Shown one piece after another: positions 26,921 to 31,738 of a stretch of DNA of 41,633 bases. Below the pieces are notes generated by a model that worked only from the letters and a program-made list of their open reading frames with translations, was not told where the DNA came from and searched no databases. The translations under genes and the position numbers were made by a program. This DNA comes from Oscillospiraceae bacterium (GTDB lineage Bacteria; Bacillota; Clostridia; Oscillospirales; Ruminococcaceae). Every line of letters starts with the position of its first letter. Position 1 is the first letter of the stretch. The stretch covers positions 1-41,633 of the forward strand of contig JAFZGF010000026.1 of NCBI GenBank assembly GCA_017555565.1, written 5' to 3'.

Positions 26921-28186
26921 TTAATATTCTATTCTCTTTTTGATCCGTCGGCTGCGGATAACGTTGATTGCAACAGTTGCAATTACAAGAATAAGGAACA
27001 CAGTAGGTGCAAACAGGTCGTTTGCAGTCTGGTTAAATGAACGGATGTCGCTCCAGGCTGTATCCATAGCTTTGCTGATTTCTTCATCAAGAATGGTGAA
27101 AACTTCAGTATTTGCCAAAACATCATCAGACGGATATGCAACAGGGTTGTTTTTCATATCTTCGTCCAGCAGTTCGTATGCACCCATATGTGGTGTAGGA
27201 TAATAGATGTATTCAGCATTTGCCAGGGCAACATCAACTTCGTTAAGGAAGTTGATATACATATGTGCTGCCAGTACATTCTGCGCATCTTTTGGAATAA
27301 CAGCTGCGTCTGTAAACATATTGGTACCTTCTACCGGCACAACAAAACCCAGGTCTGGGTTTTCTTCCATCATTGTCAGTGCGTCACCTGCGTAGTAAGG
27401 TGCCAGGGCGGCTTCGCCACCACACATCTTGTCAAAGATTTCATCGTTTACATAGGCCTGTACCACACCTTTCTGTGCGATAAGGTCTTCCATTGCAACT
27501 TCCACATCATCCAGTGTTTTTGGGTTAAGGGAACGTCCGTTTTTCAGCAGTGCAATGGCAAAAGCATCACGGCTGTTGCCAAACATAAGGATATCGTTGG
27601 CATATTCTTCATTCCACAGGTCAGCCCAGCTGGCAGGAACTTCGTTTACCAGTGTTGAGTTATATATGATACCTACTGTACCCCAGGTGTATGGCACGGA
27701 GTACACATTGCCAGGGTCATATTCCAGGTTCATATATTTTTCGCTGATGTACATAGTGGCGTTAGGGATAAGGCTCCAGTCCAGAGGCTGCAGCATATCT
27801 TCCTTGATCATTTTTGCAATCATATAGTCTGATGGAATAACCACGTCATAGATTGCGCCGCCGCTTTTCAGCTTTGTATACATACCCTCGTTGTTATCAA
27901 AGGTCTGATAGTTAACCTTGATACCTGTCAGGGCTTCAAATTCTTTATTTACATGCATTGCGCCATCCTGGCCCAGGGACATATATTCGCCCCAGTTGAA
28001 TACGTTCAGGGTAATACCCTGGCCTTCCAGCTGTTTCCAGTCGTATTCATCAGCCAGTTTTGCAGCTTCCAGCTTTGCAGTGTCTGGCTTAGGAGCAATC
28101 AGCAGCACATCGTTTGCCGCGAAAGCAGGCATTGCCATAGCTACTACAAGGCACAAAGCAACAATCAAACTAAAAACTCTTTTCAC
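26921..28186 (-). CDS. potD: Spermidine/putrescine-binding protein with C-terminal membrane anchor
   Basis: A 421-residue substrate-binding protein of the polyamine ABC importer. It starts with GTG, preceded by GAGGT. The signal peptide (about 1-23) ends MAMPAFA-A, a type I site, and has no lipobox. The PotD core runs from GITLNVFNWGEYMS to about residue 370, with FDNNEGMYTKLKSGGAIYDVVIPSDYMIAKM. After it, a predicted membrane helix PTVFLILVIATVAINVI (about 394-411) and RSRRIKKRI form a C-terminal stop-transfer anchor. So the protein would be held by its C-terminus rather than by lipid. It is the last gene of potABCD, five bases after potC. Confidence 0.93.
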   Translation of the reverse strand: MKRVFSLIVALCLVVAMAMPAFAANDVLLIAPKPDTAKLEAAKLADEYDWKQLEGQGITLNVFNWGEYMSLGQDGAMHVNKEFEALTGIKVNYQTFDNNEGMYTKLKSGGAIYDVVIPSDYMIAKMIKEDMLQPLDWSLIPNATMYISEKYMNLEYDPGNVYSVPYTWGTVGIIYNSTLVNEVPASWADLWNEEYANDILMFGNSRDAFAIALLKNGRSLNPKTLDDVEVAMEDLIAQKGVVQAYVNDEIFDKMCGGEAALAPYYAGDALTMMEENPDLGFVVPVEGTNMFTDAAVIPKDAQNVLAAHMYINFLNEVDVALANAEYIYYPTPHMGAYELLDEDMKNNPVAYPSDDVLANTEVFTILDEEISKAMDTAWSDIRSFNQTANDLFAPTVFLILVIATVAINVIRSRRIKKRIEY

Positions 28187-28191
28187 TTATT

Positions 28192-28980
28192 TTACCTCGT
28201 TACTTTCTTTTCATCTTTGATGCTCTTGATATTAACCGCAAACAGAATTGTCAGGATTACCAGGAACATAATAGTTGAAAGGGCGTACATTTCCGGACTT
28301 ACACGGCGGCGTGCCATTGCATAGATGGCAACAGGCAGTGTCTGTGCGTGACCGGAGTTGAAGTAAGAAATAATAAAGTCGTCAATAGAGAATGTAAGTG
28401 CCATAAGGAAGCCGGATATAATACCAGGCATAATTTCCGGTACAACAACCTTGAAGAAGGCCTGTGAAGGGTTACAGCCAAGGTCAAGGGCGGCTTCATA
28501 CACACGATAGTCCATCTGCTTCAGCTTTGGCATAACAGACAGAATAACATACGGTACGTTGAATGTGATATGTGAGATAAGCAGTGTACCCATACCGAAA
28601 TCAAAGTCAAACCAGCCTCTGAAAACGTTGAACAGCAGCAGCAATGAGATACCTGTGATGATATCAGGGTTTACAACCGGCATATAGCTGATGTTGATAA
28701 CCAGTGATTTTTCCCAGGCTTTCATAGCATCGATGCCCACAGCGGCTATTGTACCCAGAATTGTGGCAACTGTGGCCGCAATTACAGCAACAAACAGAGT
28801 AGTGATAAATGCTTTGATGATAGCTTCGTTTTTAAACAGTTCCACATACCATTTCAGTGTAAAGCCTGTCCATACAGTACGGCTTTTTGACTGGTTGAAT
28901 GAGAACGCGATCATAACGAAGATTGGCATATAAAGGAATGCCAGTATAACAGCCCAATAAGCTTTTTTCAGTAATTTCAT
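28192..28980 (-). CDS. potC: Spermidine/putrescine ABC transporter permease PotC
   Basis: A 262-residue inner-membrane permease with about six helices. The EAA loop that contacts the ATPase is in YEAALDLGCNPSQAFFKVVVPEIMPGI. It begins AYWAVILAFLYMPIFVMIAFSFNQSK, as PotC proteins do. It overlaps potB by one base (TAATG), so translation is coupled. With PotB it forms the polyamine channel, using PotA for energy and PotD for capture. Length is standard. Confidence 0.95.
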   Translation of the reverse strand: MKLLKKAYWAVILAFLYMPIFVMIAFSFNQSKSRTVWTGFTLKWYVELFKNEAIIKAFITTLFVAVIAATVATILGTIAAVGIDAMKAWEKSLVINISYMPVVNPDIITGISLLLLFNVFRGWFDFDFGMGTLLISHITFNVPYVILSVMPKLKQMDYRVYEAALDLGCNPSQAFFKVVVPEIMPGIISGFLMALTFSIDDFIISYFNSGHAQTLPVAIYAMARRRVSPEMYALSTIMFLVILTILFAVNIKSIKDEKKVTR

Positions 28981-29789
28981 TATAACAAGCCCTCCGAATC
29001 ATCATCGGCAAAGCCGTTTGTAACAGACATACACAGCAGTACCAGCACCATCAGAACAAGACTCATTGCAGAACCAAGGTGAGGGTTGTAGCTGTTGCCT
29101 AAAAATTGCAGGTCAATAAGGTCGCCGATCATAAAGGCAGAGTCGCCGCCCAGCATTCTGGAAATAACGAATGTGGAACAGGATGGCACAAATACCATTG
29201 TAATACCTGTGGTGATACCAGGCAGTGACAGCGGTAAAAGAACCTTTGTCAGCACGTGGTAAAGGTTGCCGCCCAGGTCCTGAGCTGCTTCAACCAGTGA
29301 ATGGTCGATTTTTACCATTGTAGAATACAGCGGCAGAATCATAAAAGGCAGGTAATTGTAAACCATACCCAGAATTACAGCGCCGTTGGTGTTGATCATA
29401 TTGAAAGGGCCAAGGCCGAACATACCGAAGAATTTGTTGATAAGACCGTTTCTTTCCAGAAGGCTCATCCAGGCGTATGTTCTCAGCAAAAAGTTCATCC
29501 ACATTGGCAGCATAATAACCATCATCATTACTTTCTGACGGTTTGCTTTCATACGGGACATAAAGTAGCTGACTGGATATGCCATAATAAGGCACACCAC
29601 AGTAGCCACGCCGGCCAGGATAATACTGCGCAGGAAAACAGGAGCGTAGGTTGACAAAGCGCTCATATTTTCAAAGGTAAAGTTACCCCGTTTGTCTGTG
29701 AATGCAAAATACACTACAAGGCACAAAGGGGCAAAGATAAATATTGCCATCCATAACAGATATGGCGCACTGATGTATTTTGTTTTCAT
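28980..29789 (-). CDS. potB: Spermidine/putrescine ABC transporter permease PotB
   Basis: A 269-residue permease with about six membrane helices. The EAA loop is VEAAQDLGGNLYHVLTKVLLPLSLPGI. Further family hallmarks are the N-terminal YLLWMAIFIFAPLCLVVYFAFTD and LPMWMNFLLRTYAW. It starts three bases after the potA stop, giving the usual A-B-C-D order. The partner is PotC. Nothing unusual was seen. Confidence 0.95.
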   Translation of the reverse strand: MKTKYISAPYLLWMAIFIFAPLCLVVYFAFTDKRGNFTFENMSALSTYAPVFLRSIILAGVATVVCLIMAYPVSYFMSRMKANRQKVMMMVIMLPMWMNFLLRTYAWMSLLERNGLINKFFGMFGLGPFNMINTNGAVILGMVYNYLPFMILPLYSTMVKIDHSLVEAAQDLGGNLYHVLTKVLLPLSLPGITTGITMVFVPSCSTFVISRMLGGDSAFMIGDLIDLQFLGNSYNPHLGSAMSLVLMVLVLLCMSVTNGFADDDSEGLL

Positions 29790-29792
29790 AGC

Positions 29793-30839
29793 TTAGTCCC
29801 TCATTCTCTTCATAATATGGATTTCTTCAGGACCGATGTTCATACCGATAAGTTCACCCACGTTCTGTTTCTGTGTGGAGTGAATAATCCAGTCAAAGCC
29901 ACCCTGTTCAACAGTGATTTCGTAGTGAACACCTTTGAACACAACGCTTTTTACAACGCCGGACAGCTGACCCTGGATAGCAGGAACAACCTCGATATCT
30001 TCAGGACGGATAACAACGTTAACAAGTTCGTTTGGTTTGAAGCCTTTGTCAACGCAGGTAAACTGTGTGCCGTTGATTTCCACCAGGAAGTCACGCACCA
30101 TAATGCCGTCCAGAATATTACTTTCACCGATAAAGTCAGCAACGAAGGCATTTACAGGTTCGTTATAGATATCCTGTGGAGTGCCAATCTGCTGAATGAT
30201 ACCGCCTTTCATAACAACAACGGTGTCAGACATGGTGAGAGCTTCTTCCTGGTCGTGTGTAACGTAGATAAATGTGATTTCAAGAGCCTGCTGAATTCTT
30301 TTCAGCTCTATCTGCATCTCTTTACGCAGTTTAAGGTCAAGTGCACCCAGAGGTTCGTCCAGCAGAAGAACCTTTGGCTGGTTAACCAGTGCGCGGGCGA
30401 TGGCAACACGCTGCTGCTGACCGCCGGAAAGAGTATTGATATCTCTTCTTGCAAAGTTTTTAAGACCTACGATTTCCAGCATTTCCAGAACACGGGTTTT
30501 GATTTCCTGGTCTGGCAGCTTTTTAAGGCGCAGGCCGAATGCGATGTTTTCGAATACGTTCAGATGAGAGAACAGAGCGTATTTCTGGAAAACAGTGTTT
30601 ACCTCTCTTTTGTAAGGAGGCAGGTTTGCGATGTCTTTGCCATCAAAAAAAACACTGCCGGATTTCGGTGTCTGGAAACCGCCAATGATACGCAAGGTAG
30701 TTGTTTTACCACAGCCGGATGGGCCCAGCAGTGTAACGAATTCCTTGTCGTGGATATCAAGTGACAGACCATTAAGGATATTTTCCCCGTCAAAATCTAC
30801 AACAATGTCTTTAAGGCTGATAATAATGTTATTGTCCAT
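29793..30839 (-). CDS. potA: Spermidine/putrescine ABC transporter ATP-binding protein PotA
   Basis: A 348-residue ABC ATPase that powers polyamine uptake. Walker A is [11 protein letters not shown] (about 37-47), the Q loop follows, the signature [15 protein letters not shown] is near 137 and Walker [13 protein letters not shown] near 158; the H loop is in [12 protein letters not shown]-terminal TOBE-like domain (about 270-348) includes [11 protein letters not shown]. The ATG follows AAAGGGG by nine bases. That ribosome binding site lies inside a long predicted stem in the leader, so initiation of the whole operon may be controlled at the RNA level. Confidence 0.96.
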
Positions 30840-30848
30840 AATACAGAA

Positions 30849-30912
30849 CCCCTTTGCGGTAATATTCTACGTCTTTACGTAGCCAGCGCCAATTATACTA
30901 CCCCGCAAAAGG
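30849..30912 (-). promoter_or_regulatory. Structured potA leader sequestering the ribosome binding site
   Basis: Read on the minus strand, CCTTTTGCGG (30912-30903) pairs with CCGCAAAGGG (30859-30850). After a GG bulge, TAGTAT (30900-30895) pairs with ATATTA (30865-30860). A 12-base asymmetric loop, AATTGGCGCTGG, faces a single A. A terminal hairpin CTACGT-AAAG-ACGTAG (30882-30867) closes it. That makes 22 base pairs, two of them G-U wobbles that would be mismatched in the other strand's RNA. The AAAGGGG ribosome binding site lies in the right arm. No T-run follows, so control would act on translation. I know no named riboswitch that fits. Confidence 0.6.
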
Positions 30913-31044
30913 TTTGTTACACCGGCAGAAAACTGTCGGTTACAGCAGTACATACAACGCCAGTATGATATTAGATTTCTGTTAATTTAATGCCTTTATT
31001 CTTTAAAATAGCATAAGTCTAACAAGTCATTACATACTAAACCA

Positions 31045-31073
31045 ATTGTAAATTTTTTATGTATATTTGTCAA
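31045..31073 (-). promoter_or_regulatory. Promoter of the potABCD operon
   Basis: On the minus strand TTGACA (31073-31068), 17 bases, TACAAT (31050-31045), close to sigma-A consensus. Transcription from about 31038 gives a leader of about 200 bases before potA. Confidence 0.7.
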
Positions 31074-31128
31074 TAGGTATTCAGATAAATGTAAAATCAC
31101 GGTGTATTATGTGAATAAAAATAAAAAA

Positions 31129-31148
31129 GCAGGGGCAAAAGCCCCTGC
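31129..31148 (-). terminator. Terminator of the phosphoribosyltransferase gene
   Basis: A perfect 8-bp stem GCAGGGGC/GCCCCTGC with an AAAA loop. The minus strand continues TTTTTTATTTTTATT. Confidence 0.92.
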
Positions 31149-31168
31149 CTGAAATTTTGAATATTCTG

Positions 31169-31738
31169 TTAGCCAACAAAGATTGGCAGTTCGTTGAGAT
31201 AGTAAAGTTTATCGTTAGGAAAGTCTGTACCTTCACGAAGAACTGCAGCATAACCCACAACTTCTATATCACCGATTTTATCCAAAAGAACTTCCATAGC
31301 TTTGAATGTGCCGCCTGTGGAAACAACGTCATCCATCAGCAGTACTTTTTTGCCACGGATTTTTTCTGCATCTCTGATGTCAACAACCATTTTCTGCACT
31401 GCAGCTGTTGTAATGGATTTAACTTCTGTTTCGATAGCGTCCAGCATATATGCTTTTTTGCCTTTTCTGAAAACAACGAAATCTTTTTCGCCCAGCTGTG
31501 TGCAAACTGACTGTGCCAGTGGAAGAACTTTTGCTTCTGGTACTACAATGTAGTCATAGTCAACATCTTTGATTTTATCTGCCAGAACTTTTGCGCAGTA
31601 GTTTGTCAGTTCTGTGTCGCCCAGCAGAACAAAGCTGGCAATGTGCAGTGTTGGATGTACAGGTGCAATAATCAGGCGTTCTGTTCTGCCTGCAAGGTCG
31701 ATATCATAATAAGTCTGTCCTGTGTATGCTATTTCCAT
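31169..31738 (-). CDS. Adenine phosphoribosyltransferase-like protein
   Basis: A 189-residue type I phosphoribosyltransferase. The PRPP-binding motif is VLLMDDVVSTGGTFKAM (about 131-147), and YIVVPEAKVLPLAQSVC corresponds to the flexible-loop side. These enzymes join a purine base to PRPP, making AMP or a related nucleotide in salvage. Several similar proteins in Clostridia are annotated as adenine phosphoribosyltransferase, but xanthine or regulatory PRTases are not excluded. The N-terminal hood region (EIAYTGQTYYDIDLAGRTERL) is not a typical Apt sequence, so the base specificity is uncertain. AAGGAG precedes the ATG. The gene is monocistronic. Confidence 0.82.
   Translation of the reverse strand: MEIAYTGQTYYDIDLAGRTERLIIAPVHPTLHIASFVLLGDTELTNYCAKVLADKIKDVDYDYIVVPEAKVLPLAQSVCTQLGEKDFVVFRKGKKAYMLDAIETEVKSITTAAVQKMVVDIRDAEKIRGKKVLLMDDVVSTGGTFKAMEVLLDKIGDIEVVGYAAVLREGTDFPNDKLYYLNELPIFVG

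Follow-up and report, generated by a model that had tools for sequence, protein, structure and literature searches.

A conserved structured RNA in potA leaders of Clostridia, a candidate translational riboswitch for polyamine import

Why should the messenger RNA of a polyamine importer begin with a leader that can fold over its own ribosome binding site? The question is raised by a 41,633-nucleotide stretch of DNA from an Oscillospiraceae bacterium (the window, by which we mean this whole stretch), where such a leader precedes the following genes:

29793..30839, minus strand: potA, polyamine ABC transporter ATPase by NCBIfam, presumably the controlled gene, with its ATG start codon at 30839
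26921..29789, minus strand: potB, potC and potD, downstream of potA, with spermidine/putrescine transporter subunits as best NCBIfam matches, below the curated cut-offs

PotA itself clears both of its cut-offs (NF043075, 555.5 bits against 550; TIGR01187, 357 against 355.6), and the PotD-like protein (26921-28186, minus strand) finishes in a run of hydrophobic residues plus a basic tail (FLILVIATVAINVIRSRRIKKR), which suggests a C-terminal membrane anchor. Our answer to the question, to which we give a probability of roughly 0.6, is that the potA leader acts in cis as a structured RNA and most likely represents a translational riboswitch class not yet described, one that turns potABCD off through a pseudoknot at the Shine-Dalgarno (SD) sequence.

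The original prediction started from a single hairpin, or rod, and each of its parts can be found on the minus strand: a base helix of CCTTTTGCGG (30912-30903) with CCGCAAAGGG (30859-30850), a middle helix of TAGTAT (30900-30895) with ATATTA (30865-30860), a 12-base one-sided loop, AATTGGCGCTGG (30894-30883), and a capping hairpin of CTACGT (30882-30877) with ACGTAG (30872-30867), the only non-Watson-Crick pairs being U-G and G-U as claimed. The rod also holds an unpaired GG (30902-30901) between base and middle helices that had gone unmentioned. As a single-sequence fold it is weak evidence, since the hairpin alone (-21.8 kcal/mol) has z = -2.04 and 9 of 200 shuffles do equally well, a modest gain over chance, and a 241-nt stretch including the leader reaches just z = -0.82 (46 of 200 shuffles equally good). 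Nor does the rod survive as the functional, conserved fold that it was taken for: of 76 leaders of what we call subtype 1, only 7 have the middle helix in full, namely the window and six close relatives whose PotA proteins are 91-99% identical, and the strand TAGTA of that helix belongs to a covarying helix, P1, whose partner TACTGCT (30950-30944) lies beyond the coordinates first given. The capping hairpin shows one compensatory change in close relatives (CTACGT/ACGTAG as against CTGCGT/ACGCAG in L046). We therefore read the rod as part of a larger element that comparison indicates is real; within the rod, only the 10-bp base helix is general. It is the comparative evidence, rather than any single fold, that lifts this element above chance.

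What, then, is the larger element? Across related leaders we find a conserved structured RNA spanning about 30964-30849 on the minus strand, in which a strand that hardly varies, GUGUAACAAACC-UUUUGCGGGG, is framed by the covarying helices P1 and P2. One segment of this strand, CCUUUUGCGG, is complementary to the SD arm CCGCAAAGGG, and the anti-SD sits inside the loop of a covarying helix. Its parts are these:

30958..30961, minus strand: P1a 5' strand GGCG, pairing with 30888-30885; 4 of 4 pairs with two-sided changes in alignments A1 and A3
30944..30950, minus strand: P1b 5' strand TACTGCT, pairing with 30902-30896; two-sided changes in 4 of 7 pairs (A1) and 5 of 7 (A3)
30921..30940, minus strand: P2 hairpin ACCGAC...GCCGGT (30940-30935 with 30926-30921), with one A-C mismatch in the window; two-sided changes in 5 of 6 pairs
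30903..30922, minus strand: near-invariant strand GTGTAACAAACCTTTTGCGG, from the alignments and an arm table of 125 leaders
30912-30903, minus strand: anti-SD CCTTTTGCGG, the 3' half of the near-invariant strand
30896..30902, minus strand: P1b 3' strand GGTAGTA, immediately 3' of the anti-SD, from covariation
30885..30888, minus strand: P1a 3' strand CGCT, from covariation
30867..30882, minus strand: P3, a variable hairpin identical to the capping hairpin above, with the compensatory change in L046
30849..30859, minus strand: potA Shine-Dalgarno arm CCGCAAAGGGG, partner of the anti-SD, present in 71 of 74 matches selected on the other arm only

In an alignment of 23 leaders, of which L024 is the most divergent, this appears as a near-invariant CYGCTGTARC, a stem, GGTGTAACAAACC-TTTTGCGGGG, a variable stretch, CCGCAAAGGGG and the start codon; the interval of P3 is occupied in other genera by unrelated predicted hairpins. 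Since CCUUUUGCGG directly adjoins P1 on its 3' strand, an H-type pseudoknot could arise by stacking of the SD helix on P1, a layout in which both would be able to form together. Two other ideas about the element were given up. A short upstream reading frame ending at the conserved CTGTAA/CTGTAG was rejected by eye, as L013, L016 and L023 read CTGCAG or CTGCAA there, and strand exchange between two GCGG repeats is not general, many P1 strands being without CCGC.

How good is the covariation? P1a, P1b and P2 were found by reading the alignment by eye. In A1, an unguided MAFFT alignment of the 23 leaders (L001, L022, L026 and L027 were dropped beforehand), 92.5% of the P1/P2 cells pair, as against at most 60.6% in slid versions, a control in which P1/P2 is somewhat favoured by having been derived from the same sequences; 13 of the 17 pairs change on both sides, and the covariation score is reached by none of 500 shuffles. 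Pairing rises to 95.6% in A3, whose 76 distinct subtype-1 rows are model-fitted and include the chance match L082, and P1 of subtype 2 is 86.2% paired with two-sided changes in 13 of 13 pairs (38 rows, likewise model-fitted). A tree-aware test, with a null of our own construction and alignments made without structure, places 8 of the 10 best pairs among 73 distinct subtype-1 leaders in P1 or P2 (L054, L082 and L141 dropped); four pairs have E<0.05, being P1b 16-70, P2 27-44, P2 31-40 and the non-canonical 3-82. Among 37 subtype-2 leaders, aligned unguided and with L166 dropped, there are two such pairs, both in P1b and top-ranked. That so few pairs reach E<0.05, four and two, we count against the element. 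A swap test of P1b is positive, not strong: the leader's own score is reached by 5% of swaps or fewer in 22 of 125 leaders (control, 2 of 125), and against divergent swaps 28 of 76 and 12 of 49 leaders are positive. As for the leader collections, one left out L147, L151, L154, L172, L176, L211 and L239 and had no match for L164, L212, L223, L238 and L243, and another matched 97 of 100 sources, the exceptions being L077, L094 and L143. The selection on RNA structure that had been argued from the G-U pairs is thus borne out by covariation in relatives, in P1 and P2, and the arms are conserved there too.

The next question is where the element occurs, and the answer is in front of potA. BLASTN with the 222-nt leader finds matches in 25 of 197 family genomes, counting the window's own. 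Of the matches, 23 immediately precede a PotA orthologue (70-100% identity), the other two being stretches of 21-24 nt without PotA. One copy of the exact SD 16-mer is present in each of 42 family genomes out of 196, spread over 34 of 125 genera; every copy lies 4-18 nt before PotA on the same strand, and a reversed 16-mer has no match in the family genomes. In addition, we searched a named-genome collection of 84,980 species with a pattern for the left side only, GTAACAAACCN{0,2}TTTGCGGGG. Among its 74 matching stretches, the SD arm lies further downstream in 71, and in 70 the next gene in the same orientation codes for PotA; another breaks off before this can be judged, and three (L077, L082, L094), from all of which the SD arm is absent, we judge to be chance, L077 being without PotA and L082 and L094 lying near ABC ATPases of only about 30% identity, on the opposite strand in L082. 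The titles of the matches are mostly Gemmiger, Fournierella, Pygmaiobacter, Faecalibacterium, Subdoligranulum and other Oscillospiraceae and Clostridia.

The element is not a fixed companion of potA within the family. With a threshold of E<=1e-110, a PotA is encoded by 125 of the 197 family genomes, and 110 of their leaders divide by pattern into 22 of subtype 1, 45 of subtype 2 (an assignment in which P1 is putative in L147, L151, L172 and L176) and 43 of neither, which we count against our best reading. The survey, with four further subtype-1 leaders from the 23-leader set (L018, L019, L023, L025), covers all but 12 of the 126 PotA matches. This distribution suggests gain or loss of the element within the family. 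Some of the element-free leaders, of which L136, L139, L187 and L203 are examples, carry a plain AGGAGG-type site. Across the class, an SD pattern matches in 4 of 391 genomes, two of them with PotA and the element and from two other families, and the remaining two (L221, L224) are discounted as being without PotA. Of 90 distinct class PotA leaders (91 were surveyed, L222 being the same as L231, from about half of 180 PotA genomes, with loose patterns that may miss subtypes), five have the element, and three of the five make up a third subtype, which comes from a different family within the order; L222 and L223 had been added to this survey because the SD pattern had already found them.

Altogether, 125 distinct leaders were assigned to three related subtypes. 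Subtype 2, which also occurs in two other families of the class, keeps the same SD pairing around a different core, typically GTATG-TACCGC...CCTTTTGCGGG-AGCGGTA-NAAAAG, in which P1a and P1b covary. Are these one family? Two covariance models speak to this, R1 for subtype 1 and R2 built from subtype 2 only (all 23 leaders went into A1, and A2 took 20 from the 45 of subtype 2, picked for their clean GTATG motif; high scores are to be expected for the rows used in training). R2 finds the window's element at 30969-30875 with E = 3.4e-5 and recognises 19 of 23 subtype-1 leaders at E<=0.1, R1 recognises 31 of 47 subtype-2 and 1 of 3 subtype-3 leaders at that threshold, and both pass over all 43 PotA leaders that do not carry the element. 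Because of this cross-recognition, and the silence on element-free leaders, the subtypes are probably one family. Also counted against our best reading is L223, from another family of the class, which was assigned by eye and is matched by neither model. Whole-genome scans gave matches to R1 in 7 of 394 genomes, real only in the window and in G025, and to R2 in 2 of 295; absence there proves little, since the scans score about 10-13 candidates per genome behind strict filters and R2 missed G038, a known subtype-2 genome (L174). The model matches L030-L034 are chance, as there is no PotA at those loci. In the contexts scanned so far, where genes other than potA were sought with the patterns and models just described, the element is associated with potA alone.

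Is the leader long enough to hold all this, as originally supposed? A length of about 200 nt is plausible, because a promoter-like site lies well upstream and the upstream gene has its terminator at 31150-31127:

31045..31073, minus strand: promoter-like TTGACA-17-TACAAT, putative potA promoter, 11 of 12 consensus matches
30965..31040, minus strand: 5' leader domain, conserved among close relatives in an alignment of 7 leaders

Among 7 close relatives, with the window counted as one, all retain TTGACA and 6 retain TACAAT; three weaker promoter-like sites occur besides. A simple consensus scan of the minus strand between 31126 and 30840 found no terminator-like site in the leader. Within the 5' part, ACAGAA (30982-30977) can pair with the TTCTGT that follows the SD (30848-30843), a pairing present in the minimum-free-energy (MFE) fold for one of three leader lengths tried. 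The window and its close relatives have potential helices TAGTATG/CATACTG and TTAGA/TCTAA between 31040 and 30965 (minus strand), and they are missing a GCATC segment which, in many other leaders, lies near the predicted transcript start and is complementary to a GATGC right after the SD (for example in L144, L212, L160 and L185). In 124 leaders the two segments occur together in 77, neither in 26, GATGC only in 19 and GCATC only in 2, a strong co-occurrence in counts that ignore relatedness. They are possibly an outer closing helix, for which the swap test is non-discriminating (4 of 125).

Could this be something already described? Scans of the window, the leader and 20 relatives with Rfam 15 agree with the earlier impression that no known riboswitch class is involved. 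The window has no match at gathering level; at E<=10 the region 30700-31200 yields eight weak matches, all upstream of 31073 and none in the element; and at E<=1 the relatives yield two tRNAs and one weak match to a miRNA model, all away from it. The covariance models of T-box leaders, SAM-II, preQ1-II and the potC motif (RF01751) give no match either. SAM-II and preQ1-II are H-type pseudoknots that sequester the SD, with the anti-SD in a helix loop, and control translation; the potA element has a comparable, pseudoknot-like layout and differs in sequence, helices and gene.

Selective sensing of polyamines by natural RNA was long doubted, and the one rare class reported is a spermidine riboswitch, a variant of SAM-I that acts by transcription termination at biosynthesis genes of the speE, speB, speD and ldcC type (Salvail et al. 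2023, PMC10853860). As that account has it, both are cis-regulatory RNAs of polyamine genes in Gram-positive bacteria, with OFF logic that is shown for the spermidine riboswitch and presumed for the potA element, whereas ours sits at an importer, is without a leader terminator and is without a SAM-I match. Indeed, its P1/P2/anti-SD layout differs from that of SAM-I, and no SAM-family match was found in the window, in 30700-31200 or in the 20 relatives, where a variant could score low. The potC motif is likewise named for a polyamine transporter gene, and is described as marine only (Weinberg et al. 2010, PMC2864571). The potE motif of Veillonella, at a putrescine antiporter, is presented as a weak riboswitch candidate about 200 nt from its gene, with poor covariation and no obvious expression platform (PMC8632094), and that description sets it apart from the potA element. 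Borrelia given too much spermidine has less potAB RNA and less PotA protein, and the potABCD importer is lowered partly after transcription starts; the cis effect maps inside the coding sequence of potB and is accompanied by truncated potB RNAs. The account describes no aptamer and so sets this system apart too (PMC10319736). In the literature on polyamine riboswitches and potABCD available to us there is no such potA leader, and an unnamed listing in supplements is possible.

How might the leader work? We propose that the two segments of P1, around an internal loop, and P2 would form an aptamer-like core with the nearly invariant joining strand, and that the 3' part of this strand, CCUUUUGCGG, would pair with the SD arm CCGCAAAGGG. 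Once the P1/P2 core had bound its ligand, the pseudoknot would be held closed, the ribosome would be kept out and the importer would be turned off; without ligand, the SD helix would open. Such a ligand was originally imagined to open the rod, and we think closing the likelier direction, because the conserved pairing is the one that hides the SD. The gene context makes a polyamine, spermidine or putrescine, the likeliest ligand. Hiding the SD of an importer is in keeping with feedback from the compound that it takes up, with Borrelia potAB as a precedent at the RNA and protein level, and import of spermidine is probable in the one genome examined, the window's own (G000), since it has no detectable spermidine synthase or SAM decarboxylase and no credible NspC (one weak nspC match, 22.3 bits against a cut-off of 409, judged absent).

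That it is the gene context alone that points to a polyamine means, of course, that the same build could serve another ligand, such as an amino acid precursor, SAM or a related metabolite, or an ion. There are riboswitches of transporter genes whose ligand turned out not to be the one first guessed, and with only one gene context the ligand cannot be triangulated. The association with potA alone in our scans, and the apparent lack of spermidine synthesis in the window's own genome, speak against such a ligand, which we regard as unlikely while still the most serious of the alternatives; these are partly compatible with one another. Somewhat less probable is a translational operator bound by a protein, autogenously or by an RNA-binding regulator, with no metabolite sensed at all: it too would show up as a conserved RNA covering one SD, no ligand is known, and the regulator could be one that travels with the locus, although the long invariant joining strand, the several subtypes around one core and the pseudoknot-like layout would be more typical of an aptamer.

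The SD helix itself deserves a closer look, as it decides how the folds relate. It is the most constant helix and nearly invariant, with 16 arm combinations in 125 leaders and CCGCAAAGGGG in 118 of them, for which reason it has little covariation support; these 125 leaders were partly selected on the SD arm, which the 74 named-genome matches (71 of them with it) were not. A few altered arms remain pairable (for example CTCTTTTGCGG with CCGCAAAAGGG, CCTTTTGTGG with CTGCAAAGGG), and across leaders the SD arm is complementary to the conserved anti-SD, so the ribosome binding site would be buried as first supposed. Single-strand folding predicts the SD helix with a probability above 0.5 in 48 of 75 subtype-1, 14 of 46 subtype-2 and 1 of 3 subtype-3 leaders, and the 3' strand of P1b paired with the upstream region above 0.5 in 19 of 75, 25 of 46 and 2 of 3, so that in such folding most subtype-1 leaders favour the SD helix over P1 (48 versus 19 of 75), a result that we count against our best reading. 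The window comes out near balance between the two, the anti-SD pairing with the SD with a probability of 0.43-0.48, and this we count in favour. Its MFE structure is the nested P1/P2 fold (-37.6 kcal/mol), in which the SD arm is free of the anti-SD and in a weak local hairpin at most, and GUAA of the joining strand pairs with UUGC of the anti-SD. This fold is what would be expected of an ON switch with mutually exclusive states, nested P1/P2 keeping the anti-SD off the SD and the SD helix forming otherwise. We consider that doubtful, and a little more so than a protein operator: no base belongs to both P1 and the SD helix, which lie side by side, so nothing forces exclusion, the subtype-2 consensus is without GUAA at that place, and an importer turned on by its own substrate would be unusual. 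Simple sequestration by a ligand-free SD hairpin or RNA thermometer, as the rod suggests, is very improbable, for constant as the 10 bp of the SD helix are, such a device would have no need of P1, P2 or invariant unpaired bases, and the rod's middle helix is complete just in the 7 leaders already mentioned.

We thus return to the proposed OFF riboswitch with an SD pseudoknot. Comparison of leaders shows the conservation, the pairing of P1 and P2, the complementarity to the SD and the association with potA in all contexts found; that the two helices make a pseudoknot and do not exclude each other, that a ligand is sensed, that it acts in the OFF direction and that it is a polyamine are inferred from there. 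The fuller form of the proposal is that of a new class, present in Clostridia (many of them from animal guts) in three or more subtypes, that senses a polyamine directly and shuts off potABCD through the SD pseudoknot, and here we would lay even money. If true, this would be, as far as the literature available to us and Rfam 15 go, the second natural class of polyamine riboswitch and the first for polyamine uptake. The leader in Gemmiger, Fournierella, Pygmaiobacter and related gut bacteria would furnish a second, independent system for polyamine sensing by RNA, would reveal the means by which these Clostridia adjust their uptake of polyamines, and would offer a compact SD pseudoknot candidate whose ligand is directly testable.
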